From Nereocystis luetkeana (Eukaryota > Sar > Phaeophyceae > Laminariales > Laminariaceae), in assembly GCA_031213475.1 (NCBI GenBank), contig JARUPZ010000036.1:1488001-1552000 (forward strand): a stretch of 64,000 nucleotides of DNA, given 5' to 3'. Below the pieces are notes generated by a model, which ran no database searches, was not told the origin of the DNA, and saw only the letters and a list, made by a program, of their open reading frames with translations. Position numbers and translations under genes: made by a program. Shown here piece after piece: positions 4,201-63,700 of the stretch (positions are counted from its first letter, which is position 1; every line of letters begins with the position of its first letter).

Positions 4201-6796
4201 GGGCCACCCCTTCTACAGCTGTCGCAACGATTACCACGCATAACCTGACAACGTAAGACGAGTAAATGTGACTGTTGCGACAGGTTTAAACCATTGACGA
4301 ACATTCTAACTGGCCGAAACATACCGTACACGGGCCTGGGAACCTGGACGGGCCTCAACATACATATACTTCGCACCAAACAACCATCCCCGGTACAAAG
4401 TTGATCCGCACGTCAAGCACGACGGCAACATGGGCCGAAGGGTTTGCCTCTGAAATTTTTCCTTTTAAATAGATAGTTGTATGCATCTGAAGTACACTAT
4501 ATTTTCACACTACGATTGCTTTGTAAAGCCCGAAGGGTAGGTGAGCCCAAGACAGGCGTGTCTTGGTACGCGGCATGGTATATTTGTGCTAAAACTTACA
4601 ACTGTAAAATGTGATAGGTGGTACTCCCAATAACGACGATCCAGCACACCTAACGAGGATGATGTTCAGTGACTCCAGGCGATGTTTCGGCAGTCTCAAA
4701 CGACCAATGGTATCGCGGCAATTCAAGAAGACTTTCTCCCACGGTTACCCTAAGCTGATAACTGTGGCCCGGTCACCACATGCGCCTTTCCGCCGACCCC
4801 GCGTTGCTGTTACGTCGATTTTGGAAGCTCCGGCTGTTCCATCACACACAGTGATGTAGCGAAATATGCTTTACGGTAGTCCCAAGCGAATGTGTTTGCA
4901 GCGATGGTGCTAAGGTCTACTGGGTGACCCCACGTTGACGTAGCCCCTGATTTTATTGATGTCCCGACAGACCCTATCGCATTTTCATGATCAAACATGG
5001 GAATCCGCCGTCGAAGTTGTTGTTGTGGGAAATATTTTTTTCAAAATCAGCCGCGGACTCATTTTGGTGTCATCGGGGCGGGTCGGGGCCCCCGTTTAAA
5101 TATTATAGACATCGTACGCGCGCTATCTGGCTGTAAGCGCGGCAATCTTTGCACGTAGCACTCGGCGTCAACGTGCGTGGTCATGCTGTGTACAGTGCAT
5201 TGCTCCTGCCCGAGACCACCCCCTGATGGTATAATATCCTTCTGTCCAGCGGGCATGCTAAGCTCCGCGTGGGCCTTGCTTACGTACGGCGCAGCCGCCC
5301 GTGTAATGCCTTGCCTTGCCGCAATTGTGGCTGAAAATACAAGCTGGATCAACATGAGACTGCCGTCGCCGTCGCGATTGTGTCACCTCCTCCCGTCTTG
5401 CTCCGTGACAGCTCGTCCAGGTAAAGGTCGTGTCACAGGGACTGAATACTCGTGACGCCCAAGTCTGGTTCCTTCCAGGCTATCTGCTTGACGCCTGGGG
5501 ACTCTCCTCCTGCTAAACCGTGGCAAACGATGGCCGTGAACTGCTTTTTACTCCGACTCGATCAGTAGGTTGTGCGCTCGAACGAGCTCGTGGATGCAGC
5601 TGTCGGGATATTGTCCCGAAGAAATGATCTTAATTACGAGTACCTCCCGTGTAGCGCCGATCGTCTCGTCATTGATGATCTTGACTCGAGTAATTTCACC
5701 GGCTTTTCGCTCGTCGCCGTGCGTTCCGCGTCTGCCCTCTGCGTGTTTGATCACCAACAGAGCCGCCGATTTTCTGTCACGAACAAAAAGTGTGGACCAA
5801 AATATCCTGGTTGGCTCAATGGAATGCAGCATAGTGCTGATCGAGGGACGCTTGCGGTGTAGTCGTCACCACTGCTGTGGTGATGCTGATCGATCTGGTT
5901 TGCCCCTCTGGAGCTGTACAGTGCTGTAAGCCCATCGTACTCGTACATGCTACACAAAACCGGCACAAAACCAAGGGGTGTGACTGCCAACATTGTATGC
6001 ATGTAAGGAATGAGCAACTTTTTTATGGGTACCGATACGGCTTCAACGTATCCCTACAAATGTCGACAAAACTACCTGGTACGCGAGTAGTCATAGCGAT
6101 ACTCGGGACAACAAGGTCATGACTTGCAGTCCATGCGTCCAACTCGTAAACCACGGGCACCACGACCGACCTGGAATTAATTGGCTTCGATGATTGATCG
6201 TTTGTTCAGTACAGCTGCTGTAGAGTCGTCTTCAAAATCTAGGGGGAAAGATAACATATGGGAAGAAACAGGCACGTAGCTGAAATTACGCCGGGACAGA
6301 AACGCGTAAGCATTCTGATATTCTTCAGTCTTGGCCAAGGGTTTACCCAATCACTCAGTGGAAGCCGTGTTAACCTTCAATGCAGCGTCAATACTCCAAC
6401 ATATACCCATGATGGGGCGGGGAGCGAATGCGATAAAACTGTGTGTCATGAGACCATATTGAGGAAATACGAAGGACATATTGCAGTATCAGGCCTTCTC
6501 CAGAAAATCTTATGGTTCGCGGCGATATTGGCACGCACCATGCATTGAGTTGAGTAGACAGTCAGCAGCTACATACCTTGCTAATACCTTGTTGCGTGCA
6601 ATGTAGCCATGCGGCATAAACTAGTTACAATATATCCGGTGCGTATACACTATGCTGATATTTTAACGCCATGGTAAGGTCCTTCTGTGTGGGACTGTGC
6701 GATGTTCATGTTCAATACCATTTCATCTCATAGGCAACAGCAACCACATCACGGAAACATCTATATTAATTAGAGGTTGCGTCCATTGCTGCACGA
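1252..6796. other. No supported gene
   Basis: Only short frames occur here, several of them open on both strands over the same bases (for example 5548-5929). I saw no family motif, no consistent splice model and no repeat shared with the rest of the window. Single footprint-like palindromes occur at 2597 (TATTAATA), 3896 and 5639 (TACGAGTA), 5938 (TACTCGTA) and 6073 (TACCTGGTA). Confidence 0.4.
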
Positions 6797-11643: not shown

Positions 11644-13138
11644 GGGTAACCTGGTCCACCGGGTCGGTCACGCTGCGCGCACAGCTTCTCTGGACTAACT
11701 GCCAGAAACGATACGCCCGCAAAAATCGGGCGCCCCCCCTTTGGGGGGGAGTAACGAGAGGCCTCACCAAGGTCTGCTACGGGAGTCAGCAGGGGAATGA
11801 GCTAGCACCTGCCTATGGGTGCGACTGACGGACTCGTCCCAGGCCATACCTGCCTCAGAGTCCGTGGACGTGGAAACGGGTTGGTTTAATTAAGTCAAGG
11901 GATACGTGGCGGCGACGTACCCTTGCTGCGATGATGGATCGACTGCCTCTACCTCCGAGCCGCGAAAAGGACATCATCGAGCTTGTTCGAGCCATGTGCC
12001 CTTCGACGGGCGGAGCCACGAATGTTATACCCTCCCGGTGAAATCTTCAAACGTTTTGGAGGAGAAGGTAGTAGACTCATCGAGCAGCCGGCGGAACGTG
12101 TAGTGGAGTGGAGGGGTGGAGGGTCTCTAGCCAAAAAGGGGATCTCGGAAAACCACCTTTTGCAGGTAGTCTCGGTTTCCACACAGGCAGGTAGTCATCG
12201 AGGAGGGTACCTGGGTTCAAACTCTAACTGCAGGGTCATCAGGAGGCCAGGAGAAACAAGCGGGAGGGAAAGGGTGGTATACGTACACCCTTGGCTTGGG
12301 ACTGGGGCCTGAATGTAGTTTAGAAGGCAAACACACTGTGTGGAGTAGTATGTCATACTCCAGTTCGTAGTACTGGAAACAGAAAGACACGTAATATCAA
12401 TGTCAAGCGGGATGCAGGTAGAGAAAGTTCGTGTACAAACAAGCGAGAATAGTTGGCCTGAAGTACTCGTTCCTTGTTAGATTTCGTTTTGGGTTTTTTT
12501 CTTCCTATTAATAGTGGTCACGAGAGATCGAGATTTATCGCTGAACGTTGTCGAAGGGCAAAATTAATAATTTATAACAGTGACACTACATTTATGAACC
12601 GTAGGGAGTTGAAAACATACCAAGACACAGATAAAGGCTCGTCCAAGAAGGTTATACAACAACAGGGCTGGCAGACTGACATAAGTTTTACCAGGTGCAT
12701 ATGTACTACCAGGTACCGGTAGTTTTTAAAGGAGGTAGTTGCTCACAGGTGCCCGGTACTGGGCCAAGTGTACTACCGTGTTTATGCTGCACTTACCCTG
12801 GCTGCTCTAAAAACGAATTGTCGTGAGTACAACAGGAACAGTGTGATACTCGACTAAACAATGCTATCTTCTAGTATTAATAGTTCACAGCAGCAGCAAA
12901 CAAAACAAGGGCGCGGCGCGGCAGCGGCGATACAACAAATCTCAGGATTGATAATAGTGACAAAGCAACCAGACAGGACCATGGACAACTAAGTGTGTAG
13001 ACATCCAGTAGTCTTCTTCTTCTTCTGGAGGGTAGGCGGACACGGAACACCTCGGCCGCTAATTGTGACATTGGGGCGGGAAGAACGCATTGCACGTACG
13101 TACCAACAGAGTAGGTATCACGTTGAACACGTGTTTGT

Positions 13139-13172
<34 letters not shown>

Positions 13173-14462
13173 GAGAAGGACTGTCTGTCCTGAGAGCGGG
13201 GTTTACCCTCGGGTATAGCTTCGTAGGCACTTTTTGGCACCCAGAGATACAGCCACGCAGGAGAAGCTGAGCCTCACCAAGCGTGAGCGATCTGTGGTAC
13301 GACTAGTACCAACTAAGGTATAACGTCATACTCGTACAAGTATTGCGAGCGTGATACTCAACTTGCCGTGTAGCTCGATGCTAAATATTTCACCCCCAAC
13401 ATGGCAGCGCCTGCTTGCTGCAGTACGTACGGCCTGTCTCGTAATCGTAACGTTTTTCAACTTAAAAAAATAAAATTGACACAAGAAATTGCATACCACG
13501 TACGTGAACAATAATAATACCTGATACCCTGGTACACACCTACCTGGTACATACATGCGGTTGCCGGCAATACTATTAATACCTGGACTGAGCAAATAAT
13601 CACCCGCAATACGGGCGATCCGCTTCTAGCTGTACGGGAAACGGGAGAGAGTTTTCGAGGGCATCGTCGATCGAATATTTCGCTACAGGTTCGAGAGTGA
13701 CGAGGAGGACGTATTTGTAGCCGTCTTTTTCCAGCGCTGGGGTCGATTCCCTGGCTGGGTGAAAACACTCCGGCGGGAAATCGAGAATAGGGTAGGAACT
13801 GGGACGGGCGCGTAGGTAGCTTAACGGTTACATCAAGTTTTCACATACTGTAGCGCTGTTTGGACTACTCTAATACGTATCAACATTCAATGGCACGTGA
13901 TTGTCCGATAAGGCAGTACGAATGAATGTGGACATCTAGCGGCCCGACTACTGGTGGTACTGCCACATTTTTCTGGGGGGGCGCATGTGTACGCATGTAT
14001 GTGTAGTATGTTTTGTGGATGATACCAATCAATGTAGATGACTATGGTACCAGGAAACTGGTACCTGGTATATATTTTTTTCAAAATAAAGCGTACATTC
14101 ATTATGTGGGCATCGGTGCCGGCTTTTTGTTTCCGCCCCTTCCCTCGTATTTGCTTTTCAGCTGCAAGCCACGCCAACGCGACAGACACCACATCACCAT
14201 CAATCACCCCGGGCAAGCAATCACTCTTAACAAGAATTGTTTGTCGGAACCGGTTTAACGAATATATATGATACGCGGCAGTACTACCCTCTAGTAGTAC
14301 CCACCTGGTACATAGTCTGATATGGTATTGCCTACTTTGCTGGGCTTGATTGGAGCATATATCTGTTTTTGCGGTGGTAGTGGTGTCTTTGCGTTCCGCT
14401 TTCATCCCTTTGCCGATTACCCGAACTTACTCGTTCTTGTCTCTCCTTCGCATCGATCCGTT
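11644..14462. other. No gene recognised; transition to AT-rich, palindrome-rich DNA
   Basis: From about 12.3 kb the composition changes. TA-bounded palindromes become frequent (12508, 12707, 12880, 13328, 13541, 13573, 14062), and long frames are mostly shadows of simple repeats such as the GTT tract at 13141. No exon is supported. Confidence 0.4.
13141..13172. repeat. (GTT)n microsatellite
   Basis: About ten uninterrupted GTT units. They account for the Cys or Asn runs in overlapping open frames. Confidence 0.95.
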
Positions 14463-15238: not shown

Positions 15239-16650
<1,412 letters not shown>

Positions 16651-17309
16651 AAAGTGCGGCCTTATAGCAGCAGTAATGTGCGTGGGTATACCCACAGACA
16701 GGCTGTGATACAGAGGAGACAGAGACAACAAAATCATCGCTAAGATGTCCAGGGCACGTACCAGGTATCGCAAACAAATAAATGTAAGGCCAGCATACCT
16801 GGCACGGCAGAAGATAATGAGGTGTTGGCTATTAAAACGGTGGAAGTAGAGAATGATGGAAGAAGAACACGCGACCAAAGATAGAAGCGGAACCGAAAGA
16901 GAGAAACATAAGAGACCAGAAGAAGGAAAACACTATTCATAACAACACGTGACGTAGAAGAAGAAGATAATGTGTAAGGAATTTTTTAGGGAGAAACAAG
17001 ATAAAAGAAAAAAATACGAAATATTACTAGTAACGAACTGCTACTGCTGTACCAGGAGCAGGGCGACAAGACAAAACAAACAAACGACACCACAATCCTA
17101 AATATTCAAGGGCAAACAAACGCCGGGGGATTTTTCTGGGTGAAAATACGAAGAACGTTTTTTTCAGTTTGTTCTACGAGTACTCAATTTTAATATACCC
17201 CCCTGTCTGGACCTCGGAAATTGGTGTGTGATTGTTATTTTTTATTATGCACCTATATTCAACTCAGCGATAAAAGTATATTGCCATCCCTGCTATTATT
17301 GCTACGTAT
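16651..17309. other. Nothing recognised
   Basis: A-rich intervening DNA with one TACCAGGTA palindrome (16759) and one TACGAGTA (about 17177). No coding or repeat family was recognised. Confidence 0.5.
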
Positions 17310-19753: not shown

Positions 19754-21047
19754 AAGGGCCGCTTAGACACCAATCAATACGGATAGCAATCGGCTCTTGA
19801 ATTTACGTCGAGAGTAAGTAGTATTAACAGTGATTGCAGGCAGTGTTGATGATGACGCCAACCGTGAGTTTTCTTTTATTCAAGAGCATTTCAATTTGAA
19901 ACCACGTTTGTTTGTTCTTAGTGCATCTTTCCTCTTTCTCTCTCGACATATTTTCGAGGCTTTTTCGAGACCTGGTGCGTGCTCAGTCGGTCAGGCAGCG
20001 GAGGGAAACGGCAAACGTTCGGAGTGGATTTCCCAACAAGAAAAAGTTGTGGTGGCTACAAATCCACAAAAAAAATAAATCAACTCGGCATCAATGGGTC
20101 AAACAGCATGGCTGGGCCAGATGGCGCTTCAAATTTCTTCCCCTGCAACAACAAAGGTCTCCCGAAATATTCTCGGCCTACGTACATATATTATGTATGG
20201 TGAAACGGGCCCAATAACGTATTTTAGCGCTTTTAACGACCCCGCACATACATTTATTTGTGTCGAAAAATAAATGGCGCTGAGCTAAAAAATAACGGTT
20301 TTATGGATGTACCAGTTTGTGCGGCAAGTGGCACACAGCCTCCGGCGGATGATACGCTGCGCGCAAATTTATATGACGAAAACGTTTATGTATGTACATA
20401 CGAGAGCGCCAGCGCAACCCGTAACCAGCACGCGGCACTGCCCCACCATTTTTGTTTGTATGTTTCTCTCAGCTTGAAGCTTGAAGCCGTGGTATTAGTA
20501 CATACCAGGTACGTGTATGTACGCACCATTTTTATAGAGGAGCATTTATTTTGAGAATTTTTCTTTTATACTGGTAAGTGGTACGGACCTTTTGGGCCTT
20601 TCCCATCCACAAGGCGCAGTAGAGACGCAACTACCTCTCCGCAGGAGCCACCCGAGGCTCACTATTAATAGCCACCCTAGTCCACCCACAGGCGCGCCCC
20701 ACCGGGCTACCCTGCTCCCATGTAGGCAATAATAGCGGTATCGCCCACAGCCACGAATTAGAAACAAAAAATACTAGCCGCCCAGTCATTCTGCCTTCTG
20801 CCTACACAAGGGATTATACATTATTAATCTGATGTCTTCGATGTGATGGGATCCGTGCGAACAAAAGTATGATACATCGATTCCATATAAATGCGTATAT
20901 ATACCACTCAGTGCCGAAACGTAAGCCCCCATTTGTGTACCAGGTATCAATTATCAGTCTAAACGGTCCTTATACGTTTCGCAACATGGTGCTACTTGTT
21001 TATAACATCTTTATCGCAAGGTACACACTCAGTCAGATAGATGGCCA
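19754..21047. other. Nothing recognised apart from short palindromes
   Basis: AT-rich spacer with TACCAGGTA at 20505 and 20938 and TATTAATA at 20664. No gene or repeat family was recognised. Confidence 0.45.
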
Positions 21048-21269: not shown

Positions 21270-22032
21270 GCCCCGTTTTATTTGGTCTGGGACTCGCCGT
21301 GATGCCTCTAGGGGTTTGAATCGCCGTGATGCCTTTAGGGGGTTTGAATGTTAGAGCTTCAAGTTTCGAACAATGTTCGCTCTATTGCCAAATGCCATAT
21401 ATCTCTGGTAGCACCACGTGAACGAAAAAAAAAACCGAGCGGCCCTTGTTGGTTGAACACGGTGCGACTTGTTGCTGGTGCTGTACTTCGCACTTCGAAC
21501 GCTGGCACGACAAGAAGAGCACAGCAGTTGGAATCTACTTACGATACTGGTAAGATTATATTATGTATAAATGTATAAATGGTATAATTGTGTGTTGAGT
21601 TGTTGCTATTAAATATTAATATTATTTCATGACGGACGAATTGCACCCACAGCAGCAGCAGCAGTCTGTGCGTGTGTCAAGAAAAAAGTGAAAGACGACA
21701 ACTGAGATAATAATGGTTGCTGTGTTCTTGCCTTCCATAGGTTCGTGTACCATCTGAGGACACACTTTTGAGGGGGGGTTGGACCTTCATCTCTACCAAA
21801 ATATACGAGTACCAAAATTATTTTTGCTGCTTTATACCAGGTACCAGGTATCATACTTCGCACGTTGGCACGACGAGAGCACAATATATAATAACAGTTG
21901 CTGGAACTGATTATATGCCGACAATATTTTATGTATCTATTTGTATCGAGGTGTCATTATTATTTCACAACGGGCCAAATTGCACCCAGCCTGTGCGTGT
22001 GCCAAAAAAATATGAAGGAAGACGACAACTAT
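21270..22032. other. Nothing recognised
   Basis: No coding signal. There is a CAG run near 21650, tandem TACCAGGTACCAGGTA at 21836 and a TACGAGTA near 21803. Confidence 0.4.
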
Positions 22033-22156
22033 CTCGGGGGACCATAGTTAATAGGACCAAATATTGTTATTAATAGTAAAACTGGTTAAATACATGGTAC
22101 CTGGTAGGTTTTTATGTATACCATAGATAGGTCCTACTAACTATGCCCCCCCGTAA
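22033..22156 (+). mobile_element. TA-flanked MITE, copy 3, carrying two micro-insertions
   Basis: The copy has the family ends GGGGACCATAG...CCCCCCGTAA and a TA at 22157. Compared with sister copies it carries TATTAATA at 22068-22075 where they have a plain TA, and TACCTGGTA at 22098-22106. These are discussed as excision footprints. Confidence 0.9.
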
Positions 22157-22853: not shown

Positions 22854-22957
22854 TAATACTGCAGCACAGGCTCACGAATAAAGGAGAAATAACAAAGTAA
22901 GAGCATTTTACCCTTCAGGATGATTGCTGATTGCTCTATAATTTCTACCTGGTACCG

Positions 22958-25655: not shown

Positions 25656-25791
25656 ATAACGGGGATCCATACAAGTAAATAGCACAAAATATTGCTACTA
25701 TTAATAATAGTAAAAATAGGTTAATATACACCTGGTAGTTTTTTTTTCTATACCATAGGTCCTACCTGGTATTAACTATGGCCCCCCGTAA
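25656..25791 (+). mobile_element. TA-flanked MITE, copy 6, carrying micro-insertions
   Basis: Family ends and interior are present. GGTCC-TACCTGGTA-TTAAC (palindrome 25763-25771) replaces the GGTCCTATTAAC of sister copies, and a TATTAATA at about 25702 lies in the left interior. Confidence 0.88.
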
Positions 25792-25908
25792 TATTAGTTT
25801 TATTAATAGTAGCATCATTATGAATAGTTGCAGTACTGAAGTAGCGTGTTTAAATATGCACACCGGATATAGTATTTACCAGGTATATACGCACGTACTG
25901 GGCATATA

Positions 25909-26107: not shown

Positions 26108-26111
26108 TTAA

Positions 26112-26909: not shown

Positions 26910-28358
26910 ATGCCTTTCGTCTCTAGGCCTGCTGCTGTGGTGCTGCTATCCTGCTGCCTGGCTTTCGGTATCCTCCTCGGGTTCACGGGCTTTACGGCGA
27001 AGGACTCGCGCCCCACGGCGACCGCGGCCGCGAACGCTGCTCTGCGCGGGTTCAACGAGGAGGAGGAGGAGGAGGAGGAGGAGGTGAGCGTTATAGACAG
27101 CAGTGCGAGGTTGCACCACCGCAACTCTGTCCTGGGTGCTGGCATTGGCACGAGACCGGGGATTGACATCTGGTAAATTAGATGTGCCGAGATATGCTTT
27201 CGGTACACACAATTAATGATACCGGCCGATCTGGTCCCGCGGCGTGTCCACAGCAGTCAGTCGATCAACATGTAGTTATACCGTATGATATGAACATGCA
27301 TGTGCCGTATAACTATACATGTGAGTTTGGCGGGGTTTTCATGCTGCCCAGGAGGGAGCAACCGGGGGTTTACCGTAGCCATACACCCTCGTCACTCTGT
27401 CAACCTGTTACTAGTGCACACGGGAGGATGGGAAGCAGTAGTCGAAGGGGAAGGGGGAGCGAGGGCGCCGCGATGCTCTGCTTTCAGATGATGAAAAACG
27501 ATTTAAATCACAGACTTGATACGACGTAAAACCGAATGGGTTGTTTTTAGTCCCCCTCCTCCCTATTTACTACTGGAGTTTCACGCACTTTTCGTTGTAG
27601 CTGTATTTTGAAAACAGCGCTGTGCAAACCAGTACCTGGTACGTACCAGTATTTATATTATCAACCAGTATTTATATTATCATTAATAATATTTTCATCT
27701 GGTAGAGGTTTACGTCTTACATATACTTTCCCGTAAGCAAGCAACCGTCTCCCTGGGTGTTGAACGTTTGTCCTTTTCTATTTTTCAATATCACTCATTT
27801 ACCCTTTGCGCCTGTCGGTTAGCCACCTTTCCTGGTGTTGTACGAGCCTGCGGCATCGGTAGCGCGGGCGCTATCCTCCTCTGCAGTGGTATTTGGTTGG
27901 CACCCTTTGCCGTCCGTCGACGCATCGTTTGTACGAGTACGTACACGCCATGTGTATATCCTGACCAGTATACGCGCACTGAAAACTTTGTTTCCTCTCG
28001 TTGTCACAACGCTGTCAGTTTGTTGCCAGCGAAACCCCCGATATTTTACTTTGAACCTGAACTAGAACTCACCACAAACACCCTTCCCCCAATTCAGACC
28101 CGGCGAGCCCTGACAACTGACGGGTCGTTCAAGCTGGACATCGAGGATTCGCTCCAGCAAGGTGAGTCTCGGGGGCTTGCCCCCCCGCCACCTCACGTAA
28201 CAAACGCACTATTTTATTACTCGTACTTGCATATCGATCGTTTCCGACAAGAAACCATTGATAATAATAGTCCGCCTGTGTTGTAGTCGCAAGCCGACGT
28301 GTTCGCGCTGGATCTCCATTTCATGATGTTCTACTATCAACAGATGCCCGCTGTCTTG
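26910..28358 (+). CDS. Three-exon model: single-pass membrane or secreted protein (partial, unknown function)
   Basis: Exon 1 (26910-27083) starts at ATG in a good context (CAAACATGCC). It encodes a short leader, then a hydrophobic segment AAVVLLSCCLAFGILLGF (residues 8-25), an Ala/Thr-rich stretch and nine Glu before a strong donor GAG|GTGAGC. Exon 2 (28098-28161) follows TTCAG and ends CAAG|GTGAGT, encoding TRRALTTDGSFKLDIEDSL and QQ. Exon 3 (28294-28358) follows CGCAAG and encodes ADVFALDLHFMMFYYQQMP. Exon phases agree (0 then 1), and third positions are GC-rich in exon 1. The N-terminus fits a signal anchor as in type II Golgi proteins, or a signal peptide. Exon 3 runs into a SINE whose GTAGGT could act as donor. 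No downstream exon was found and I recognise no family. Without splicing, exon 1 would end at 27176. Confidence 0.45.
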
Positions 28359-28630: not shown

Positions 28631-28842
28631 ACAGAAAACAAGCCTTTACTGCCCTACTATTAATAGGTACCAGGTACAAGGTACGAGAGTTAAACTTGCC
28701 TGGTCGCCAGCACGAGTACTTAAGTGTACGTGAGGGATATATTGATACTGATAGTAGACATGACCACATTCGATACGATGGTTGGTTGGCACACGTACCA
28801 CTTAGGTACGACCCAAAAGGATTCTTGTACTATTATTATTAA

Positions 28843-28929: not shown

Positions 28930-28957
28930 TTAATACCTCGTACAGCAGTAGCAGTGC

Positions 28958-31562: not shown

Positions 31563-32018
31563 GGGGGAGTGTGGTTCTACAGGAGTTCCAAATGGTTTTA
31601 CTGTCAATGATAGTTACGAAAGCTATTATACTACAATATCGATACCGTACGAAATATCATGGTTGATCGGGTCTGATTAGGGTTGCATTTCAGAACTAAC
31701 CTTACGGATTCGTCTCGTATACCTGGTACACAGGTAGTTTCACTCAACCATACTTGGAGTTTCGATAAGTCATGACGTGATGACCTCTCCTCTCCTATTC
31801 CCCCTTCCCCACCCCCCACCCCACTCGTCTGCGCTAATGGAAAAGACGTTTCGTGTCGACGAAATGTGTCCGTCGACGGAATGTGTCTGTGCTGTCTTTT
31901 CATTCAGTATTTGTTGAACCGTTCTTTTCCTCGCCAAGTACCGGTTGTTGGCGTTGTTGTTGTTGTTCTCGCAGAAGAAGGAGTCCGGGGCCACACAAAG
32001 GTGCTGTAGCCCTATTAA

Positions 32019-32107: not shown

Positions 32108-32194
32108 TTAATAGCAATATCCGAAAAACGATAAAAAATCGAAATTCGGCTGCCTAAAAAAAAACGCAGAGACACCGAAGGCGCTTTATGACAA

Positions 32195-36183: not shown

Positions 36184-36290
36184 TTCGCCAGATAGACGAG
36201 ATTTCGTTTGTAACCTCCGAGAGATTCCGTGTGTCTCGCCAGATAGACGAGATTTCGTTTGCAACCTCCGAGAGATTCCGTGTGTCGTAC
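36184..36290. repeat. Two tandem units of about 53 bp
   Basis: TCGCCAGATAGACGAGATTT through GAGAGATTCCGTGTGTC is repeated with one internal change, followed by TACCAGGTA. Confidence 0.92.
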
Positions 36291-37926
36291 CAGGTATCCC
36301 CTAATTTCGCTCTCACTTTTAGTAATACCTGGTAGTAATTTATTCAACGTATACGAGCCAGATATGATGATGACGACAGCCTGAATGGAACATTATAAAA
36401 CATAACACATCTATGCTGGTGACGGGTAATGTAAACGGCAGTTGGGAACCGCCGTATGTATGGCAGTTGAGCACACCGCGAGCTGGTTCCAGACGGGAGC
36501 GTAACACTCCACTTGCAGGCTAAAAAACAAGAACGCGTACGTAAGTATGCAACTCAAGCATATTATACCTCGTAGCTTCAATAAAAGCGACGACGAACGA
36601 CGAAGATGGTGTGGTGACGTCGTGACCCCAAACCACCGCAGTGTCGATTGATTTGCTCAGCTGGAAGCTGATGGTGAGCAGAAGTGGAGTGGGGGCGGTG
36701 CGCGTGTGCGCCTACAGCTCGCAACTAAAGTAGAAACCCAACAGGGAAACACCCCCTTACTTGTATTAAGTTCAATAAAAAAAGCACTGAGACCCCGGTT
36801 TTACCGCAACGATCAATATATCTCTTTGGGTACGCACTCGTGACCTAAGCTGTTATTATCGTCCTCTATTAATAGTATCCACGTGACCGCATCAACAAGT
36901 ACGGTGAATGGGGAACATCAGCTGATGTTGGTGTGCGAGCTGTAGTAGCTCGTGAGATACGTGAACACGTCGTAGTACTCGCGGAGGCGTTTTTGCATAC
37001 CGGGTACCCGGTAGGGATTCTAAAACCCATACCAGGGTACCTGGTATGATTCTCCAAGCTATACATACATCGGTCGAAGACGTCGAGTAATTCGTTGCTG
37101 GACCTGTTGACATGATGTATCAACACGGGGAAGACGTTCGTGACACCTGTTTGGTTCTGGAAGCTGTACAAGGCTTCTATATACGTACGTATATAAGAAC
37201 ACGCAAACGTCGTGACGGCTTTTTCATTCTAGGAAATTTGGTAGGGGTGTTCTTGATGACCTTGCACAAGCGCGTCGTGATGGCTTTTTTTTTATTTCAC
37301 TTTATTTTCGCCCGTAATTTCGAGGCGAAACTACTCGTGCCGAAATTCGTTGAAAAAAGTTGAAACGTGCCTCACTTTCATGAGAACGACCAACACGGCG
37401 CGTTTTTGTATAGACATGAAGAACGACCCTGCCAAACTTTGTTTCCCCACTGACGTTGTTCTAGGCTGCCAAAGTTTGAATCCCGAAAACACCCGGGGTA
37501 TTTCGCTGGAACCAGCTCGTGCGTATTTGATATTTCATTCCGCACCAAGACGATTCTTTAGACGAGTACCAGGTATTCAAAGGGTGGCCGAATGAGCAAA
37601 CTTCCCTACCTAAGGCCCTGTACCATCTCCCGCTTGGCACGCTGAGTCCTCCCGGACCTTCGTAATTTAGTTGTATCGTAGTCTCACCCGTACCCGAACA
37701 TGAGCCCGCCGACTTGACACTGGTTATGTAGTTTGCCGCTGGCAGGGCCCACCCAACACACGCCGACCCCACTTGACCCATCCTAATTTGTTTTGGCCTG
37801 GCCTTCCTTTGTAAACCGTCTTTTTGCCTTTGCCGTACCCGACAACTCACTTTCCACATCTTTTTTGTCGCTGCCGCCCCCGCCGAACATCCGTTCCGCC
37901 GCAAAATCGAAAAAAAAACTCCGTGA
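36291..37926. other. No supported gene
   Basis: Footprint-like palindromes at 36329, 36866, 37040 and 37568. A frame at 37112-37363 has no motif. The DNA just before 37927 may be intron of the acidic-protein gene. Confidence 0.35.
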
Positions 37927-38193: not shown

Positions 38194-41100
38194 TGTGCCT
38201 TTTCGGCATGACGTGTGCCTCTTACGAAATAAATGCCGTGTGCGAAATGCCGTGTGCCTCTAGCGGAATGTGTATTAGTAGTGCGAGTTTTTTCTTCGAA
38301 ATATAGCGTGCCGTTAGCACTACTTCTGTTCGTTTCCCCCTTATTCACTGGGAGCCGTCGTTCGTCTCGTCGACCCTTTGTTTGTAGGGTATTGCCGAGT
38401 GCGTCCTGTGGACTCCTTGTTTGAAGGTCTTTCTGAGTCAAGGTTTCCCGCAGAGTTGACCGCATCGCGGGAGATATCCTCAGAAGAGGGTGCATGCTCA
38501 CGCACTTCGTAGTGGCCGCCAAGTCTTTTTGCGCTTTACCAGGTACTCGATTCAGCGGCCAGTTTTCACCGTGCTGGTCACTTGATTACCCTACGAGCAT
38601 CGTCTGGGAGTAGTTCGCGACTTCCGCGTTTGGCAACGGGGATGATGCTGCCGTGCGGTGCACGCCATACACTTCGTGGGAGAACCGTAAAAAAAACGTA
38701 GCTAAGTGTCGGCACACACCGAGGTTTGGTAAAGTGCCCTACCAGGTATCAACTAAGGATATCATGGGTGTATTCTGAACATAATAACCTGTACGCGTAA
38801 AACAAGCTTGAGTGGAAGACGGACCCGGCCAGCGTGGTTCCGGAGAAAACAGGCTCTCTGGGGGGCGACGGGGTGGCCGTGCCGGATGATTGTTTGGGAA
38901 TATTGTTGCACACGAGGGATTCACTCGTAGTTGGCTACTTACGTACTTGGTGTATGGGGCTAGGGAGAAATATTGCCGGAATAATGTTTTGTTACCCAAC
39001 CACTTACGAGTGAGTGGGGGGCTGGGGAGTATTGTCACACTTACTTCAGGAACTCCATTTTTGTCGGATAAAGGTAGTGTCGGGTATATGTCGCCCGCCC
39101 CTTGCTCGACGATATATGACAAGCTGGCACGCCTATGGGATTATCCTTTGTTGCGATACATGGTGATGAGTTGATATACCATACCAGTATTATATTAATA
39201 GTGAAAGTTGCGACTCATTTTGTTTCAAGGGCGTTGATTAGACCAAACGAGTGTTGGTGTCCGTTTTGAGTGCCGGTCATTGAGCTCAAGTTCGGAGTGG
39301 ACATGGTGAGTGTTGGCGAGGGCCTCCTTTTGTGGCCGTTTTACTGATGTTGTGGACGTATTGGCACAGCAGCAGTGAAGTACTACATCAGCAGTAGTAA
39401 TATTTTTGCAGCTGCTAGAAGCCATGATGAGGACATGGTGTGGCTCCTCGAGCCCGTTGTCTTTTTCTTGCCTGTGGATTGCGCTGGGTTGTGTATCTAG
39501 TGAACAACTATCGGTAAAATACACACTCGATAGTGGTGAGTGGAATTCAAGCTGTCGAATCACTCGAGTAAATATATCCTCACGCAGGTTTGGTGTGCGC
39601 TACGTATTGGATTCGCACAGCAATGCTCGCGTGGGTTCGTTCTGGGGTTTTGTAGCATAGTTTGTCGCGGGGGGTGGAGGGGTTGGAGGTGGCAGGACCT
39701 CTTACCGAGATTCTCGCCCTTCTTCACGATTGTTAACTCTTGATATTACTGGTAGGCGTTTCTTGGTCGAAGGCCGACAGTTTTGGCAGGCAGGCAGCTT
39801 CGAGCTATTCTGGCACAGTCTTGAAATTTGATCGACGTTTTTTCACATCCACCCAGTGTGTATTGTTGTCAGCCATTGAGGGTTTTTCATATTGTGCGCG
39901 ATTGTAATAAATGATGCTGGTGGTTAGGGCAAAGCGCCCTGCACCGGTCACCCCTGCGGCCGACACGCTCTGGATGGATGGATCTACGAATATATAACTG
40001 CATATGACGCGTTCGTGGCGTGTTTTTTTCACGTATCGTGTCTCCGTCGTCAGCATCGGTTTCTTTCGTGGGGCAGATCTATCCGTCTCATACTAACTTT
40101 TTTTTTTTGCATTTTTAATAGACATGTTTTGTTTCGTCCGCACGTGTTTGTGCCACGGATACTACGTTTACTGGCAGCTCTGTGGTTTGGTGATGGCATT
40201 ACACACGGACCAATACAGGCAGCACCCGTTCTATAGTTCTACTAATACTATTACTTCTATACTGTATACGCACCGTACGTGTACACAAATCTACTGCTGT
40301 TAACGCTCACTGTTGGGATACGGCAGCAGGGACGATGATACACTCTTCGTTTTTCTCGGGGGCTTCGAGGAATCGCGTTTTACTGTTTTTTTCGTCGACG
40401 GTTACCACCGCGCAACAATCGATGCTCTGGTCACCCCTACCTGGTATATATTTACGAGCACAAGATTGTCGTGTCTTCACCTGGTAGGATCGTGGTGAAC
40501 GCCTCGCACCCAAAACGACAGCAGCAGGACAGCCGGCGACGGCCTTTCCGTCTAATATATACTGAAATGCCTCGGCTTGTTTTTTTGCTCCTTCCTTGCG
40601 GCTTTGCAGTATATACCTCCTTGCGAAAGTTAAGTCAGATCTCGCCTAGCCGCTCACTCCCCCAATCCTCTGCGCTTCACGCGTTTCTTGGCGTAGTTAA
40701 ATCGATGAGGCGATGAGGTCACCACCACCATCGATCTGCAACTTGTGACCCTAACCTCGAGCATTCGCCGTTGCACAGGAGGACTTAGTATATCAATCGA
40801 TTTATTGTTCCAATTTACAGTCCGTCGCCCTGATGGTCTACCAGTAGTGGGTAGCCTCGAAAATCACTGCGCTGGAGTCGGGGTTTTAAATCTTGATACC
40901 AATTTTTAATTTTCTCAAATGACGCCAACTACTACTGTCGAGAGCGCCTGTAGTCGCAGTGGTGGAGCCGAGTGTCGAGACTTCAAGGATATGAGGGTGT
41001 TGTCGTAGTCGAAGATGTTGAGCTCGACGTCGCTGCGAAGAAAGAAAGCATATCTGATGCTTGTAGAAGCGCTGCTCGTAGTTACTATTGTAGTTGAAGA

Positions 41101-41597
41101 AGTGCAGTAGCGGTGCTGGTAGTCAAGTAATGGTGATACCGTCTATGCGGCCTACTCGTAGTCGGGTGATGACGTCGAAGGCGCTTGTACCATGGCAGCA
41201 GGGGGTTCATCTAAGCCATGATGTTGGTACGTACTAGCACGAGTTTCCCGCGTGAGAGTGTGAAACCGGATTCCTTACACGTACGTGCTACGCGCGTGCA
41301 TTTGCGCCAACAATCGCCTTACCCGTTTCGCGCGTGAAAGCGTCAAGGCAGTTCTCTTTGTGGTAACCCTTTCGAATAAACTTGATGAACGTCGATGTCG
41401 ATGCAGTCGGGTCGATGCTGATCTTTTTATGGTTGTAGAGAAAACGATCTTCTGATTTGTTGGAGAAAGTATTGATATCCCTCCGTGTTAACATCTTCAC
41501 ATCCATATTGCACTCAAAAACTTTTTACCTGGTATCTTCGAAAGCAGAACTTGACGAACTCACAGAGAGACGTTGTTCCGTGGTGCCAGTCGACGTT
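38194..41597. other. No supported gene
   Basis: Mixed DNA with footprint-like palindromes at 38538, 38740, 39192, 40439 and 41528. Frames such as 38890-39174 show no motif. GA/TC-skewed and GTAGT-rich stretches lie near 40950-41180. Confidence 0.35.
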
Positions 41598-41903: not shown

Positions 41904-42302
41904 TCATCTCGGGACAATGCCCATGCTACGGGTAGATGTAGTCTACCGTAGCCCGTAATGTTCCCTGCAATGTTCTCTGCAGTGTTCCGTGATATTAATA
42001 TTATTAGTAACGTTCAGCATCGTTACCGATGATGATGCATACCTGGTACCTGGTATGGATATACCGTACCTGGTACTATTTAATACGAGTAAGACAGACT
42101 CGTGATCTATCCGAGTACGTACGCATTACATTTGCCCGAATATCCATATTAAGATATCCGTATACTCGTAACTCGTAACCATGCGTAGCGACCGCCCACC
42201 TCGTAGATACGTATGGATCTCAACGCCCATACTATTAATATAATAACGTGGGTAGGCAAGACTTCGACGAGGGACCAAAGTGCTACCTTTCTCGCGATAC
42301 AA

Positions 42303-42440
42303 CTGCAAGGCACGTACTCGTACCGTAGTGGGGGGGGGGGGGGAGCCTACTATGTGACCCCGGATCCGATTTACGACTACATCTACTCGTATATATACCA
42401 GGTAGGAGGGAGAGAGAAAAGAAGGGCGACGGCAGAAACG
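42303..42440 (+). mobile_element. SINE family A, copy h: 3' fragment with micro-insertions
   Basis: GGCACG-TACTCGTA-CCGTAG matches GGCACGTACCGTAG of other copies with an added TACTCGTA (42315-42322). A G14 run, AGCCTACTATGTGACCCCGG and a GGGAGAGAGAAAAGAAGGGC end complete the fragment. A TACCAGGTA (42397) and a second TACTCGTA (about 42382) are also embedded. Confidence 0.78.
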
Positions 42441-44772: not shown

Positions 44773-46869
44773 TAGTGGTACGCATCTAGCTGGGACCTCT
44801 TGGAGTTGTTCAGCGCTGGTGCTGTGCTGCTGTTTTTTGTCTGCATTCGTTTGTAATGTGTGTAGGTTCAGTGGACGTCTAGAAATTGGCACCGGGCAGC
44901 TTGAAATTATGTTATTCTACATACCTGGTATGTCATAGTGAGTTGAGAAATGAGTAGGGAAGGGACCATAGCTGAAAAAACGTGCGTGGCAACTGGTAAA
45001 TATATGCGAACGGGGAAGGCGTCACTAGCGCTGCCTGAAGTTCAGGGTTCTACACTATCTGACTTTTGCCGTGGCATTGCCATGGTACCACCCATGGCAT
45101 ACCATGGCATCCCAAGCCAGCCGCTGCAACACGCAGTGAGATGAAGATAGTTGAAGATGCCTTTAATACGTCGGCCTGGAAAGAGGTACCTGGTAGACGA
45201 ATGCAGGGGGAAAGGTGAAGTGGGCATGTGGGTCAACTCTTCCAGATATAATTCGCAAGGGTGGGTCGTGACTTCTAATCTCATCGCCTTCGCAATGTAT
45301 GTGTTCTTTTCGAAAGTGCGCGCTGGAGACAATACGAATGCGTATGATAGTGTGCCTCTAGACACCAGTAGCGTTTGGCGATGGGGGGGGGGCGGAGCTG
45401 ACTGATACTACAGTAATAAGTCCACGAGATTTCATGAACTCCAAAAAAATACATTTAGCTGAGTGGTCTAGCAGGTGGTCTTATATAATCAACAGAGTGG
45501 GTGTGCCGGAAAGAACGATGCGAATGCATACACACACCCTGTCGAGAAACCATGGGCCAAAACACTGACGGGGCAGGGGTTTTCGGATATTCTTTCGTGG
45601 GTCTCAACGTCAAGGCTTTGCCCAGGCCCTACGGTGCTGAGCGAGTGGATGCTCCGGTGCCGGGGCGTTTCAGACGTAGAGGGGACACGCCCCGGCGAAG
45701 AAACCGCGCTGAAAGACGGTCATAGATCCGCCGACTAAAAACGGATCAGATCAGGTTAAGGACAAACATTGGTATATTTTTATACAAGGGAGGCTTCGCC
45801 GCGGCGGGCTGACGCCCGGCGGCGGCTCCGCGCATGCTCGTAATGGCTGAACGCGTACCGGTATGCAACTCGAGGCTGTTAGTGCGGCAATACTGCCAAG
45901 GGGTGCATTTTATTAAAGATATATTTGAGGGAAATGAAAGAAAACGCTGGAAACACAGAAAAAACGGCCGTTGCCATCCGCCATCCAGCACAACAACACA
46001 TACATACATAATAACTCGTTCGTACAGCAGCAAGCAGGATTTGTTTTCAAAGTGTCACGTACGAGACGCTCGGTATCCGTACTGTATACTTCGTGTGCAG
46101 CCAGCCACGAAACAGTTTAATAGTTGAGCAGCAGTCGATCAAGCTAAACGGCAGTGCGAAGCGCCGGCGAATACGTTGGTGCAGCTAACTCAGCCGCAGC
46201 AAGCAGCAGCAGCAATCAGCAGCATAGCGTCCGGGTACGTATCGTACGAAAATTACGCTGGCACGAGGCCTTCGCCGAGACGCCAAACAAATATCAATCA
46301 CGAGACGATACTGGTACATCTTCCGAAGCAGATGGGTCCGTCTTTCAACTTCAAGATGCGGAGACACATCCCCGAGAGGGGGGTGACGTGCAAAATAACC
46401 ATTCTCACGGCGGCTAACAGCAAAAACATATCGCAGACATAGCAAGGGCAGCAACAGAACAGCACAGTAGTAGCACGTGCATAGTAGCAGGACCAGAGCA
46501 GCGAGAGAGCAGCGGCAGGAACAGCCGCAGTAGCACACCATGCACGCCCGAGGCTTCCCCTAGCACATCAGTCGAGGAAGGGGAGCCCGGTGGCGCACGA
46601 GGAGGAAAGGCATAATACTATATCCCAGGCCTACCTACTCCGTGAGGCGGATTGCGTGAGCAGCAGCAGCAGCAACAGTAGAATAGCACAGCAGCTGCAC
46701 GAAGCAGCAGCAGCAGAGCAGCGGCAGTAACAGCAGCAGTATGATAGCACATCACGCACGCCCGAAGTCGTTCTCGGCAAATCAGTCGAGGCAGGGAAGC
46801 ACCGTGGGGCACGACGAGGGAAGGTAAGAGGGCGTCCCCGATGGAGTTACTTTGTACTGAGTGAATCTC
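44773..46869. other. No supported gene; CAG-rich
   Basis: Contains CCATGGCA repeats (45075-45115), CAG/AGC runs around 46199 and 46655-46735 and several frames without motifs. TACCTGGTA at 44922 and 45188. Confidence 0.35.
46497..46825. repeat. Direct repeat of about 115 bp, two copies about 215 bp apart
   Basis: AGCAGCGG-AG-AACAGC through CACGCCCGA, AATCAGTCGAGG and GGGAAGG-like blocks occur at 46497-46610 and 46710-46825, with AGC-triplet runs at the left of each. Confidence 0.7.
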
Positions 46870-52091: not shown

Positions 52092-52650
52092 AAATGGAGA
52101 TACCCTGGTATGTCATTTTCGACTGGGTTTAGATTCGTTCCGGGTAAAGAAAGTCGTATTCGATATCTACCGTTGCGACGTGTAAGGGAATACTAAATTA
52201 TACCTGGTACCTGGTATGGCGGTTATCATTCTTGCTGGGTAAGTGGTAAATGATATGTGTATCGTTTATCACTGGTTACGGAGATCAGGATGGTATGGAT
52301 TATATTTTGTATCCCGGGAGAGTCGTGAATGGTACGAAGAAGGTATAGTATCGTCTACTATTGTAGGTTCATCAAATGGAGATGTGTCATTTTCGACTAG
52401 GTGTGGATTCGTTCCGTTTAATAAGTCGTGTATGATAAAAATCCGTTTGCGACGTGTTAGGGATACAATTATATGGTAATCATCGTTTTCTTCCCGGGTA
52501 AGTGGTAGATGATATGTAGGATATGTATAATTTGCCACTGGATACGGGTTTCTGGATGATCGTACGGAGTATATATACTTTTTATCCCTGGAAAGTCGAA
52601 AAGGGTAGGGAGGCCATTTTGATAGGTATAATATCGTCTACTCGACGGTA
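52092..52650. repeat. Imperfect tandem duplication of about 280 bp inside the small LTR element
   Basis: CAAATGGAGAT...TGTCATTTTCGACT, then GATTCGTTCC, GCGACGTGT and GGGTAAGTGGTA-ATGATATG occur in both halves (from about 52092 and about 52374). The first half carries TACCCTGGTA (52101-52110) and TACCTGGTACCTGGTA (52201-52216), where the second half has none and a plain TA, respectively. Confidence 0.8.
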
Positions 52651-54449: not shown

Positions 54450-54562
54450 TTACGGGAGACCATAGTTAACAGGACCTATGGTATACATAAAAAACTATAC
54501 CAGGGTATGTTTAACCATTTTTACTAACAATATTTGGTCCTGTTAACTATGGCCCCCCGTAA
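54450..54562 (-). mobile_element. TA-flanked MITE, copy 12, inside the copia element
   Basis: TTACGGGAGACCATAG...CTATGGCCCCCCGTAA with TA on both sides (54448 and 54563). It carries TACCAGGGTA (54498-54507) where copies 1 and 10 have a plain TA. Confidence 0.92.
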
Positions 54563-56025: not shown

Positions 56026-57384
56026 CTCGGCCAGCCGGCAGCCAGGACACGGCGCGAGCACGCCCGAGGCCGTCCCCGACACAGTCGGGATCGGGGGTCA
56101 CGATGAGGCAGCTTCGTCCCGTGGTGTGAACCTCATCCCGCGCTAGCACGAACAACACAAAAAAATACGTCCTAGAAACCCTGAGAAGCGGTGAGAGCAC
56201 AGGGCCAACACCATCGTACTTATATATATAGAGGAATGGATCCCACATGCGGCGTGATTATTTAGACTGCGCTGGATCTGAAACATAAGACGCGTTTGGA
56301 TTACGAGTACAGCAACAGTAGTAGATCGTTGGTGAGACAAGCTACTTGGCAATTATTCGTAGCGTGCGTGTGCAGTTATATGTACCTGGTAAGCGTGTGG
56401 ATGTGTGGATACTGCCGTTTGACTGATAGAAGGACGTACTCGTGGGAACTACCGGTGCCCTGGTGTGTGGTATTGGGAGTGAGGATGTGCGGATACTGAC
56501 AGTTGTTGTTTGGTTGATAGAAATACGTGCTCGTAGGAACGGCCGGTATGTGATGTTCAGTTGGGAGTCGCAGCGGCAAGCAATAAGGAGGGGTGATAAG
56601 TCATCGAGGAAAGCTGGTGTTCGTGCCGTCGTCTGCCGTGGGTTTACGGATTGCGAAATGTGTGGTGTCGTCGTCGTTCTATTGATAAGTAAGTTTAGCA
56701 TGTTCCTTGTTTGAGAGCAAGCGTTCGTGTAGGCGTGTGAGCAATGATTGGTCATTGATGTAGACTGGTGTTTGACTGTCGTCTGGGTGGGTGTAAGGAC
56801 GGCGATATGTGTGGCGTCGTCGTCCCTGTGTACTGTCCGTAACATATATATATCCAAGTTTCTTGTCTCAGCTATCCGTTATTGTACGCGTTTGTCAGCT
56901 GCTGTAGGTGCCACCAGGGGATATAAACGTATGTGAGGAAAAAAGATAGAACCACCGTTGTGTTGAGTTGGGTGTTTCAAGGGCCATAACAGTATAAGCC
57001 GAAGGGAGGCTTGTCGAGGCGGAGACCAATGCCGAAACAGGGTGGCAGTTCGTCGTATCGTTCGACTGAGGTATGCGTTGCCATCGTCTGTAGATTAGGT
57101 GAAGGTCTGGGTGGTCGTCGTCGCTGATTACGCCACTATGTGCCGGGATCAATGTGCATCGCCATCGGCTTCATCGTGCAGGTCCTGGCGGAGAGGAGTG
57201 CTTAGAAAAACCGATCTAAGTGTTGCACGGTACAAACGTGCAGTAGGACCAAATGCAGCGGTCAGACGACAACATGTTTTTGATTCTGCGAAAAAAAAAC
57301 GAAGTGGGCATCAAAGCTCAACAACTCTATTTTCAATATAAGTGGGCGCCAGGGCTATCTATATAAAATGAATAGGTACTGCTG
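56026..57384. other. No supported gene; short GTCGTC/GTGTGG repeats
   Basis: Units of about 85 bp (GTGTGGATACTG-CGTTTGACTG...) repeat near 56395-56560, which opens a 171-codon antisense frame (56342-56857) with no family character. TACCTGGTA at 56383. Confidence 0.35.
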
Positions 57385-60797: not shown

Positions 60798-63700
60798 TGA
60801 TTGCTTTGTCACGTCAGGGCTTGAAACAAAATGTGCGCTGTCCGATGCTCAACAGAAGCCAGTGACGTCGCTGAAATAAGCTATTGAGACAGTGTGCTCG
60901 CCGCCACGAGGCTGCTGGGATAGCAGTTGGCATCACCACCTTAGCGCTCTGTACCAACCAAAATGCATCACCGTCCACTTGATCAATGATTGTCTTGAGC
61001 CCCAATCCTCCCCACATAATCGTACAGGACGGGAGAGAGGTGGATAATCTTCGGGAAAAAGGCCCCTCTGCCTCTGCTTCTGTCTCTGCCCTCGAACCCG
61101 CTGTGAACCGTCCCGTGCGCGTATGCACCCACCCCACATGCCAATCGAAGCGATGAGCGCACTATCGAACGCTGGTTTACGCTCTGTCACGAGCAACGGG
61201 AAGCTGCTTCACAAGGTCCGTCTTCTACGCAGAAGGCCAGTTACACGTGCATGCCGTAGCAACATTACCCCAAACACAGACCGAACTCGCAGCGGCACGC
61301 GCCGAAATCGTTGCTCCGTTACTTCGAGCTGTTGTTGTTGACTCCACGTTCACCGTTAAACAACAGTCAGCAAATTTAGATATTTGTGTCTAGCATTGTC
61401 CTGTCTTATCATTGTCCCGGCAAGTGTGTCACCGCGGATACGCTCCATTCCAACAGCAAGCCTCCCGGTAAATTGTTACGGCACTACCTATACACCGCTG
61501 AACTCGGCAGGGGCTCGGGGCCAGCATCGCTGTAGCGCCCGGCCAGGTGGATGGACCAAGATCAACACAAAAAGAGAAAAAAAAAAAACAGAGGTGTCAT
61601 TGTATGTACGCCATACTCGGTGGTCCTCCCCAAGTCTTTATGTCGTTTACTTGTTATGGTTTGCGCAAGAATCTGCATGCCTACACATCAGTAGTACATC
61701 AAGGAATGTGCCATGATATTCCCAACGCACCACAGGTTGATTGAGCACACCTATTAGCCGGATTGATGCCTGTACTACCAAGTATGTGCTTGGCGATGCA
61801 CCGAGGCGCTGGTCTACCACGGTAGCGATTTACACGTGTCGCTCACCAGTACGCTCAGGTTTGCTTCATGAGTAGCTCTGCGTAGATTTCCGCTCTGGTC
61901 AACAGCTTCGCTTTCAAACTCAGTTCCCGCTCGATCTCCCATACTCGGCGGCCTTTTGGACAAGCCGTCGCCACATGTCGCCTCTTCTCTCCCGCGATGT
62001 ATGCCTTGGGGTAGAACGCGGACAGGGGCCATCCTGCATTCCTACTGTTTATCGACGTTCCAAGAATGCTGCCAACTTACACTCTTGCAGTTTCAGCAAC
62101 AGAAGCACCCCCCACCGGGGTCGAAGTACCATCCACCGACGGTCGAACCAATGAGTATGCCATCCTATTGACTGTCTGGTACTTAACAGGCATCGCTCTC
62201 ACTTGCTAAACAATTCTGTCCTTAGATGGATTCGAGTGTTCTCCAATTATGGTCCGTGTCCCCCACGATTGTATTCAGCTATATAACCCTTCCACTGCGA
62301 GGAGAACTGCCCCCCCCCCCCCCCCCGCAGTACATAACTCCGGTCACGATTCATCATTCTGAGACATTCTTCACAGGTCGGGCGACGGGAGGACCAGTGG
62401 TAGCGATGAAACATGTTCCTTTAACGACTATATTCATGACGGTCGCAGTCGAAGGCTCGCCAGTGACTGGAGGGAGGTGCAAAGGTAGTGGCCGAGGTAG
62501 ACCTTCCTCCCGTTCGACGATGTTGTTGGCGGAGGCGGCAGTGGCGGCTGCGACAGCACTAGCCCTTCCCAAGGTAGACATTGCACGCGCCGCTACTACT
62601 GCCATGCTCTCCCTCCTTGGCGTTTCTACGGCTGGTAATATAGGCTGGCAGTGCTGTAGACGACGTGTTTGCTGTATTCTTGATCAATGTTAGAGTTACC
62701 CGCCAGACAGCGGTGCGATGTAAAAGACGTTTCGCAGTTTCCCAGAGTATCCCAACGTGCATCCACCTTCAACGGCATATATATACCAGGTATAACCAAA
62801 ACAAACTGCAGTGCTACATACAGCAAACACCGGATCAGTAAGCAAGGCACAGTACAGCTAATGCGTTTCCGTCCTGTCCAACAATCTCCTCGATGGTGCA
62901 ATTTATTTGGTCATCGGCCTGGTTCGTCTCCTCTGACCTTTGAGTCACCCCACCGTAGGGGTTGCACTTTTTAGGCCAAAGGTTTCAGACCAGTTGGGTT
63001 CCTTAAGTGAGGAACTACGAGTTGGGATGAAATATTTCTCGTATATTCGCTTTAGGACTACTGTCGTAGCGCATACAAGTGCCGGTCGGGTGGCACGAAC
63101 GAATTTCTCCCAAGTAGTATGTCGGGTGAGAGATTGAGCTCCTAATGTGAGGGCCCCAGGAACTTCTGGTGCACCCCTACTTGTGGGATGGCTCCTTTCA
63201 ATACAGCCCAGCCCGCCTTTACGACTTATTTTTCATCATGCCAGCACAGGACTCGGAACATGTGCGCGTCCCTAAGTATTTCTGCTCCATCTCCCACTTT
63301 CTCCCTTCATTGTACCATTCCTCGCCTAGCTATACGTGTACCAGTCTGACGAAAAAAGAAGGGCCTCATTTAAATAACTTGGAAAAAATAGAGGAAATAC
63401 TTTGAATCAGAAGAGGTGAATTCAAAAGCCTCCAAGAAGAGCACCTACCTGCTCAAATTTGTTCTCAAGTTTCCTCTTTTTTCCCCAGTTTTTTATGTGT
63501 GTATACTCAGCACACCAATACTCGGAGACAATTTTTTGGTTTCCCTGGGTTAAGGAGCAAAGACAATATAATGGCAATCGGATATTTGTTGCCAGGCAGT
63601 TATTCAAATGGCTAGAATTGCCGAGAATGGCATCGATCGAAAAACAAAAATGGTCTGTACGAGCTCTCTCTGTAAATCGCCCCAAACTTCCTTACTGACT

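Follow-up and report, generated by a model that had tools for sequence, protein, structure and literature searches.

Results

The window, i.e. the whole stretch of 64,000 nucleotides analysed here, belongs to contig JARUPZ010000036.1 of Nereocystis luetkeana (G000:C36:1488001-1552000) and was taken from an assembly whose 1987 contigs total 465,085,209 bases. It contains exactly 35 copies of the palindrome TACCWGGTA (W = A or T), 15 reading TACCAGGTA and 20 reading TACCTGGTA by exact match, and comparison with sister copies of repeats identifies the word, where it can be tested, as an insertion that duplicates a TA. An earlier note on this DNA had counted these 35 sites, and its coordinates were reproduced exactly. 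Among 20 open reading frames of the window none scored above the curated cut-off of Pfam, ARAGORN (bacterial code) found no transfer RNA in it, and no Rfam match reached the gathering score.

The first site lies at 6073 and the others span 12707-62784, with flanks that differ in most of the 35. Standing alone, TACCTGGTA was found by exact match at 6073..6081, 13541..13549, 14062..14070, 22946..22954, 27633..27641, 31720..31728, 36326..36334, 40438..40446, 41526..41534, 42067..42075, 44922..44930, 45187..45195 and 56383..56391. TACCAGGTA was found in the same way at 16759..16767, 20503..20511, 20938..20946, 25877..25885, 28668..28676, 36288..36296, 37567..37575, 38537..38545, 38740..38748, 42396..42404 and 62784..62792, at 32303..32311, where it adjoins the end of a copy of the repeat MITE-A described below, and at 12707..12715, where it overlaps TACCGGTA at 12714, with TACCAGGTG at 12689. 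Three pairs overlap to form 16-letter tandems, also exact matches: TACCAGGTACCAGGTA at 21835..21850 (sites 21835 and 21842), and TACCTGGTACCTGGTA both at 42040..42055 (sites 42040 and 42047) and at 52201..52216 (sites 52201 and 52208). The exact site at 37038 is fused to a length variant in TACCAGGGTACCTGGTA (37030..37046), and a C/G-centred tandem, TACCGGGTACCCGGTA, occupies 36998..37013. The exact sites at 22098 and 25763 lie in MITE-A copies.

When the window was simulated with Markov models of order 1, 2, 3 and 4, the mean counts were 0.55, 0.48, 0.77 and 1.72 and the maximum was 6 (60 runs each), compared to 35 observed, which bears out the over-representation claimed in the note. The runner-up among the TA-N5-TA words of the window reaches 7 occurrences. 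A count of the whole assembly gave 182,395 sites versus 1,744 for a reversed-pattern control (~105-fold, ~0.39 sites per kb), and the claim held on this scale as well. Further analyses were done on a sample of 304 kb, composed of the window, the surrounding 200 kb and one 8-kb stretch of each of five further contigs. This sample holds 137 sites, including 92 in the surrounding 200 kb and 10 in the 40 kb of the five other contigs. The excess is not confined to the window region. The choice between A and T at the centre had previously been taken as evidence for the origin of the word; this argument was dropped because TACCAGGTA and TACCTGGTA are reverse complements and hence one word on two strands. 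The informative point about the centre is the rarity of C or G there (nine sites in the sample).

Insertion can be followed in MITE-A, a palindromic miniature inverted-repeat transposable element (MITE) of ~105 bases with ends TTACGGGGG and a TA duplication, whose copies in the window span 9914-54569. From the sample, 90 matches were reduced to 47 non-overlapping ones by removing matches <60 bases from a better one, and 46 copies were kept and aligned (12 of them in the window); the copy with the tandem 70755/70762 was left out. Ten window copies were aligned in a separate within-window comparison. The best filled site is TACCTGGTA at 25763..25771, where the seven-base insert is missing in the other 45 aligned copies. 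Sisters with a single TA at this site were observed within the window (10 alignment rows, in which one pair may appear twice). Once the word was reduced to TA, the sample yielded 35 alignments spanning the site; the best four were inspected, and 30/30 letters are identical in the top one.

The central TAs are filled in 8/46 MITE-A copies, and the other 38 are without the word at the centre. The eight filled copies carry six different products, namely TACCTGGTA twice, TACCAGGGTA twice (at neighbouring TAs) and TACCAGATA, TACCAGGTGTA, TACCAGGTACCATGTA and TACACCTGGTA once each, with both strand orientations of the centre at the same TA. The TACACCTGGTA copy (C36_78618) resembles the query at only 70%, and an extra CCTG near another TA of copy C36_49160 was left uncounted. 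As placed by alignment in the window, TACCTGGTA at 22098..22106 lies in a MITE-A copy (~22035-22158) and reads TACCAGGTACCATGTA on the minus strand, its empty sisters being 10 bases shorter; a variant at 25729..25737 (minus strand TACCAGGTGTA) sits at the centre of the copy at ~25659-25793, and the length variant TACCAGGGTA at 54498..54507 occupies the second central TA of the copy at ~54450-54564. The nearest neighbour of a filled copy is an empty one in 8/8 cases, where 'empty' means any copy outside the list of eight, and in 2/8 it ties with a filled copy (two decimals). Since an empty copy is nearest or tied for each filled copy, the central TA of MITE-A was struck repeatedly by insertions.

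Beyond MITE-A, a second repeat family lacks exactly seven letters in 2/3 aligned sisters at C36 block position 177781, and one of these two sisters has TA at the spot. In total, 15/137 sites of the sample have a repeat alignment across them, and the other 122 are without an aligned repeat there. A clean seven-base difference was observed at C36 block positions 125762, 177781, 204799 and 234093, and a difference of 10 rather than 7 bases at 122097 (= window 22098). Site 83181 and the tandem formed by 70755 and 70762 are located in MITE-A, and the alignments at 76439, 132302, 142395, 208568, 223091, 226527 and 236258 were uninformative. At sites that can be compared with sister copies, TACCWGGTA is a TA-duplicating insertion and is not ancestral. 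An ancestral word followed by deletion was rejected, as it would require dozens of exact losses in view of the 38 centre-empty MITE-A copies and an empty nearest or tied neighbour in 8/8. The earlier statement that sister copies have a single TA is thus proven for some sites only, such as 25763, the difference at 22098 being 10 bases; its reading of filled and empty repeats as insertion is not contradicted by any of the alignments obtained.

The insertion process chooses its TA targets. The base seven out from the TA is A or T in 65/70 half-sites in the window and in 174/204 half-sites outside it (binomial p ~2e-21 against 54%). Six out, A is favoured (52%), and directly outside the TA, T is avoided (~6%). 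Genome-wide, 123,968/182,395 sites (68%) have A/T at ±7 on both sides, compared to 520/1,744 (30%) for the reversed word and 4,745/16,750 (28%) for all TAs in the sample. Tandems inflate the ±7 count slightly, as the partner provides T/A in 22/274 half-sites; without them, 217/252 half-sites of the sample are A/T. At site 25763 and at the MITE-A centre, A/T at ±7 is already present in the empty sisters; hence at these places it belongs to the target rather than to the insert. An origin of the word from splice donors (CAG/GTA) was considered and rejected, with A after GTA in only 4/70.

The length of the product varies, as it does in repair, while the target does not. In the sample the 5 bp core dominates (137), with TACCGGTA (15) and TACCAGGGTA (10) as minor forms. 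The flank signature (A/T at -7) is present in 100% of 20 half-sites of TACCAGGGTA, 73% of 30 of TACCGGTA and 78% of 18 of TACCCGGTA, numbers that are small, and A stands at -6 in about half of them. The words TACAGTA, TACGAGTA, TATTAATA and TACCCGGGTA are without the ±7 signature in the sample. Changing insides within constant outer flanks fit variable joining of one broken target and hardly a binding palindrome.

Tandems of 16 letters occur 15,917 times genome-wide versus 2 in the control, and the word itself offers the preferred letters: T at -7, A at -6 and G at -1. From the first of these figures it follows that scars are often struck again at their own TA. The tandems probably stem in part from such re-insertion and to some extent from duplication. 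When viral contigs were scanned for the 16-mer, nine stretches were found, each containing the word two or three times, and no record was dense in it; there, two protein queries were without relatives and the MITE pattern was without a match.

Some other short words flanked by TA are also in excess in the sample. TATTAATA was counted 62 times versus 16 expected (23 in the window, e.g. 22068-22075 and 29032-29039), and in one MITE-A copy a TA is altered to TATTAATA (10 alignment rows). Judged from the ends TTACGGGGG, two bases of which would remain per end, TATTAATA may be a footprint of MITE-A. TACGAGTA/TACTCGTA reaches 65 versus 12.7, with 23 window sites and one tandem (18984-18997). TACAGTA/TACTGTA, the Sleeping Beauty type of footprint, reaches 120 versus 47.6 expected. 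The flanks of TACGAGTA/TACTCGTA and of TACAGTA/TACTGTA show no ±7 signature.

Discussion

In this study, we observed that TACCWGGTA is present in very high number in one genome with a preference for certain TAs and that, where sister copies permit a test, it was inserted there. Probably, these sites are excision footprints (scars) of a cut-and-paste transposon that targets TA and leaves five bases (CCWGG) behind. The genome-wide number, the target preference, the length variants within the same flanks and, where sisters exist, the seven-base TA insertion with its recurrence are observed directly, and we infer the transposon itself, the sequence of its ends, a five-base overhang and the mode of repair. 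The transposon would insert at a TA and duplicate it, with a preference for targets that have A/T at ±7 on both sides, A at the sixth base out and no T directly outside. It would exit via staggered cuts with five-base 3' overhangs. The overhangs CCAGG/CCAGG (or CCTGG) could then anneal by CC/GG with a single central A/A or T/T mismatch, and their joining would result in TA-CCWGG-TA, with untidier joining leading to TACCGGTA, TACCCGGTA, TACCAGGGTA and TACCAGGTGTA. The core is symmetric with an A/T centre, as expected from two annealed equal overhangs (137 versus 9 with C/G). Very many scars could come from a few long-lived elements, since an element deposits one scar with every jump while its copy number need not rise. 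By analogy, the footprint process would work like that of Tc1/mariner, for which the proposed transposon is a candidate member only. The earlier proposal of an active or recently active Tc1/mariner-like family holds with regard to a TA-duplicating insertion that is genome-wide, directed to chosen targets and variable in length, with the Tc1/mariner element that would have made it still putative.

The scars are probably younger than most MITE-A copies, judged by sequence divergence. In the sample, 36 words deviate by one letter at the four inner CC/GG positions, compared to 137 exact words, a variation of at most ~5% per position from which chance is not yet subtracted, while MITE-A copies have a mean identity of 88% to the query; the proposed age follows from this difference. 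Some scars lie inside MITE-A copies, in agreement with a younger age.

Several observations weigh against excision footprints. The search for elements with TA-CCAGG or TA-CCTGG ends, through which the earlier note expected to find the family, was unsuccessful: none with TACCAGG/TACCTGG ends was recognised in the 304 kb read out of 465 Mb. With exact identity required in the first seven bases and a range of 40-2500 bp, an inverted-repeat scan of the window and the sample gave isolated TACCWGG pairs that resemble scattered scars, and TACCAGG (66) and TACCTGG (70) without a following TA have no common continuation in the sample except the TACCAGGGTA variant. The Pfam domain DDE_3 (PF13358) had no genome match at E <= 0.001 (30 candidates scored). 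DDE_1 (PF03184) had 28 genome matches, several in open frames; the 3.0-3.5 kb read at each of four DDE_1 loci were without paired TACCWGG ends, and two of these loci contain exact scars (one in L041, three in L042). Thus 10^5 scars stand opposite no visible source. One-mismatch variants at the outer TA positions (82) exceed the inner ones (36), unlike simple decay. The tandems are oriented on the same strand in 40/59 plus-strand places listed and on opposite strands in 19 (hand count), and on the same strand in 9/11 in the sample, where independent insertion predicts fewer. Strain polymorphism, which had been proposed as a check, could be followed at one comparable site (L010 663 versus G000:C125), and the word is present in both individuals, i.e. 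shared and not polymorphic; by itself, a single shared site is neutral on activity.

Two loci deserve a remark of their own. Another of the four DDE_1 loci, L043 (G000:C34:4446900-4449900), has long inverted repeats of another kind (CACCCATCGGAGAGAT...) and is possibly another transposon family. L010 (JALZWC010000131.1) is filed under a metagenome-assembled genome of Saprospiraceae. Its bases 95-1226 match G000:C125 at 98%, and 1-1230 are DNA of the window's organism or of a very close one, followed by a PKD-domain protein. The contig is probably chimeric or misbinned.

An enzyme acting without any transposon might instead open the TA and add CCWGG plus the TA duplication in one step; it could be a domesticated transposase or the combination of a nuclease with a polymerase. 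We regard such a one-step process as doubtful, even though no parent element was recognised in the sample, and a product so numerous (182,395) and uniform, the target choice and the low number of DDE_1 frames (28 matches) would suit it. To our knowledge, no enzyme adds CCWGG at TA in a single step; the CCAGGG and CCAGGTG variants at MITE-A centres resemble variable retention of ends, and with ~0.3 Mb of the 465 Mb read, a low-copy element would escape notice. It is tempting to speculate, against rather long odds, that the genome hosts a mobile process with a ±7 target preference from which nothing but seven-base insertions, ~180,000 of them, has lasted. Their source would be a long-lived, low-copy transposon family with a previously undescribed five-base overhang, or else such an enzyme.

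Palindromes can also become frequent through selection, and HIP1 is the highly iterated palindrome of cyanobacteria. TACCWGGTA is strictly palindromic, its inner letters vary less than the outer TA, and its flanks are symmetric around it, which would suit a word bound by a protein with a regulatory, replication or chromatin function. Nevertheless, we consider this origin very unlikely. The sister copies reveal a seven-base insertion, the flank A/T already stands in the readable empty sisters, products that differ in length or centre lie between similar flanks (small numbers), and the genome-wide density is ~0.39 sites per kb. The resemblance to HIP1 lies in a short palindrome of very high number. 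A HIP1-like word is by definition ancestral and kept, while TACCWGGTA has empty sisters with a single TA and entered chosen TAs by insertion, with duplication of the target.

Alternatively, a few repeats that acquired TACCWGGTA might have carried it along during their amplification. MITE-A copies do contain the word, and one flank set, TGTCTCCTACCAGG or its reverse complement, recurs in 7 of ~100 listed G000 C1 places (counted by hand; one of them deviates by a single letter), so that some words were copied within a dispersed repeat. As a general origin this is similarly improbable: an empty copy is nearest or tied for 8/8 filled MITE-A copies, 122/137 sites have no aligned repeat across them within the 304 kb, and most of the 35 sites in the window have different flanks. 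As a minority contribution, amplification is likely. Least probable of all is programmed excision in the life cycle, in which germline elements are removed from the DNA of the assembled cells and leave scars, since nothing points to two genome versions, the mixture of filled and empty repeat copies also fits ordinary transposition, and known ciliate excision junctions keep a single TA, even if it would account for many scars without elements and for uniform junctions.

Excision footprints, which we favour, invite comparison with known systems. In Sleeping Beauty the first nick is made three bases inside the element, which results in 3-base 3' overhangs, and the footprints are identical to the overhangs, according to the accessible part of PMC7827188; here the overhang is deduced from the footprint. 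Sleeping Beauty footprints are given as TACAGTA/TACTGTA in the accessible part of PMC4378557 and printed as TAG(T/A)CTA in that of PMC2874221. Common to this system, Tc1/mariner elements in general and the present sites are the TA target with its duplication and a short palindromic, A/T-centred core between two TAs. The differences are a five-base core, CCWGG, instead of three bases, and ~180,000 copies in one genome with no parent element known and no DDE_3 match. The Tc1/mariner footprint core is stated as 2-4 bp in the available text of PMC7913693, and a longer core of five bases also counts against the proposed footprints. Stowaway MITEs of grasses likewise leave small TA-flanked remnants of their terminal repeats, with several footprints per site; these are 1-4 bp remnants at single loci, so far as the available sections describe them (PMC1925063), compared to one dominant five-base product genome-wide here. 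Passer and ZB, which are pogo/Tc1-mariner elements, also have short footprints: Passer leaves 0-4 bp and ZB leaves 0-3 bp. They are known active elements, and their footprints are shorter and more varied than those described here (PMC9976928, PMC7913693, as far as accessible).

In the accessible parts of the footprint literature, footprints are described per locus or in assays (PMC7913693, PMC9976928, PMC1925063, PMC4378557, PMC7827188, PMC2874221, PMC12477816), and no report of a genome-wide mass of one footprint was found in them. Neither TACCAGGTA nor TACCTGGTA occurs as a whole word in the searched open-access literature of 5.39 million papers. If the sites are footprints, one genome would hold a countable record of ~10^5 cut-and-paste events, including target preference and repair outcomes, and the transposon itself would now be rare or gone. 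Frequent jumping without build-up of copies, and the share of a transposase in the small-insertion mutations of a lineage, would become testable through the scars. If no element exists, this would be a novel way of inserting DNA. Seven-base insertions amount to ~1.3 Mb in total if each site is one; they cause frameshifts and introduce a palindrome that recurs.

Additional observations

Besides MITE-A, the window contains a second palindromic repeat of ~97 bases with ends like TTAACCC/GGGTTAA, found at 10694-10795, 25900-26115, 28837-28938 and 32015-32116. A perfect (TG) array of 546.5 units extends from 15470 to 16562, between pieces of dispersed repeats.

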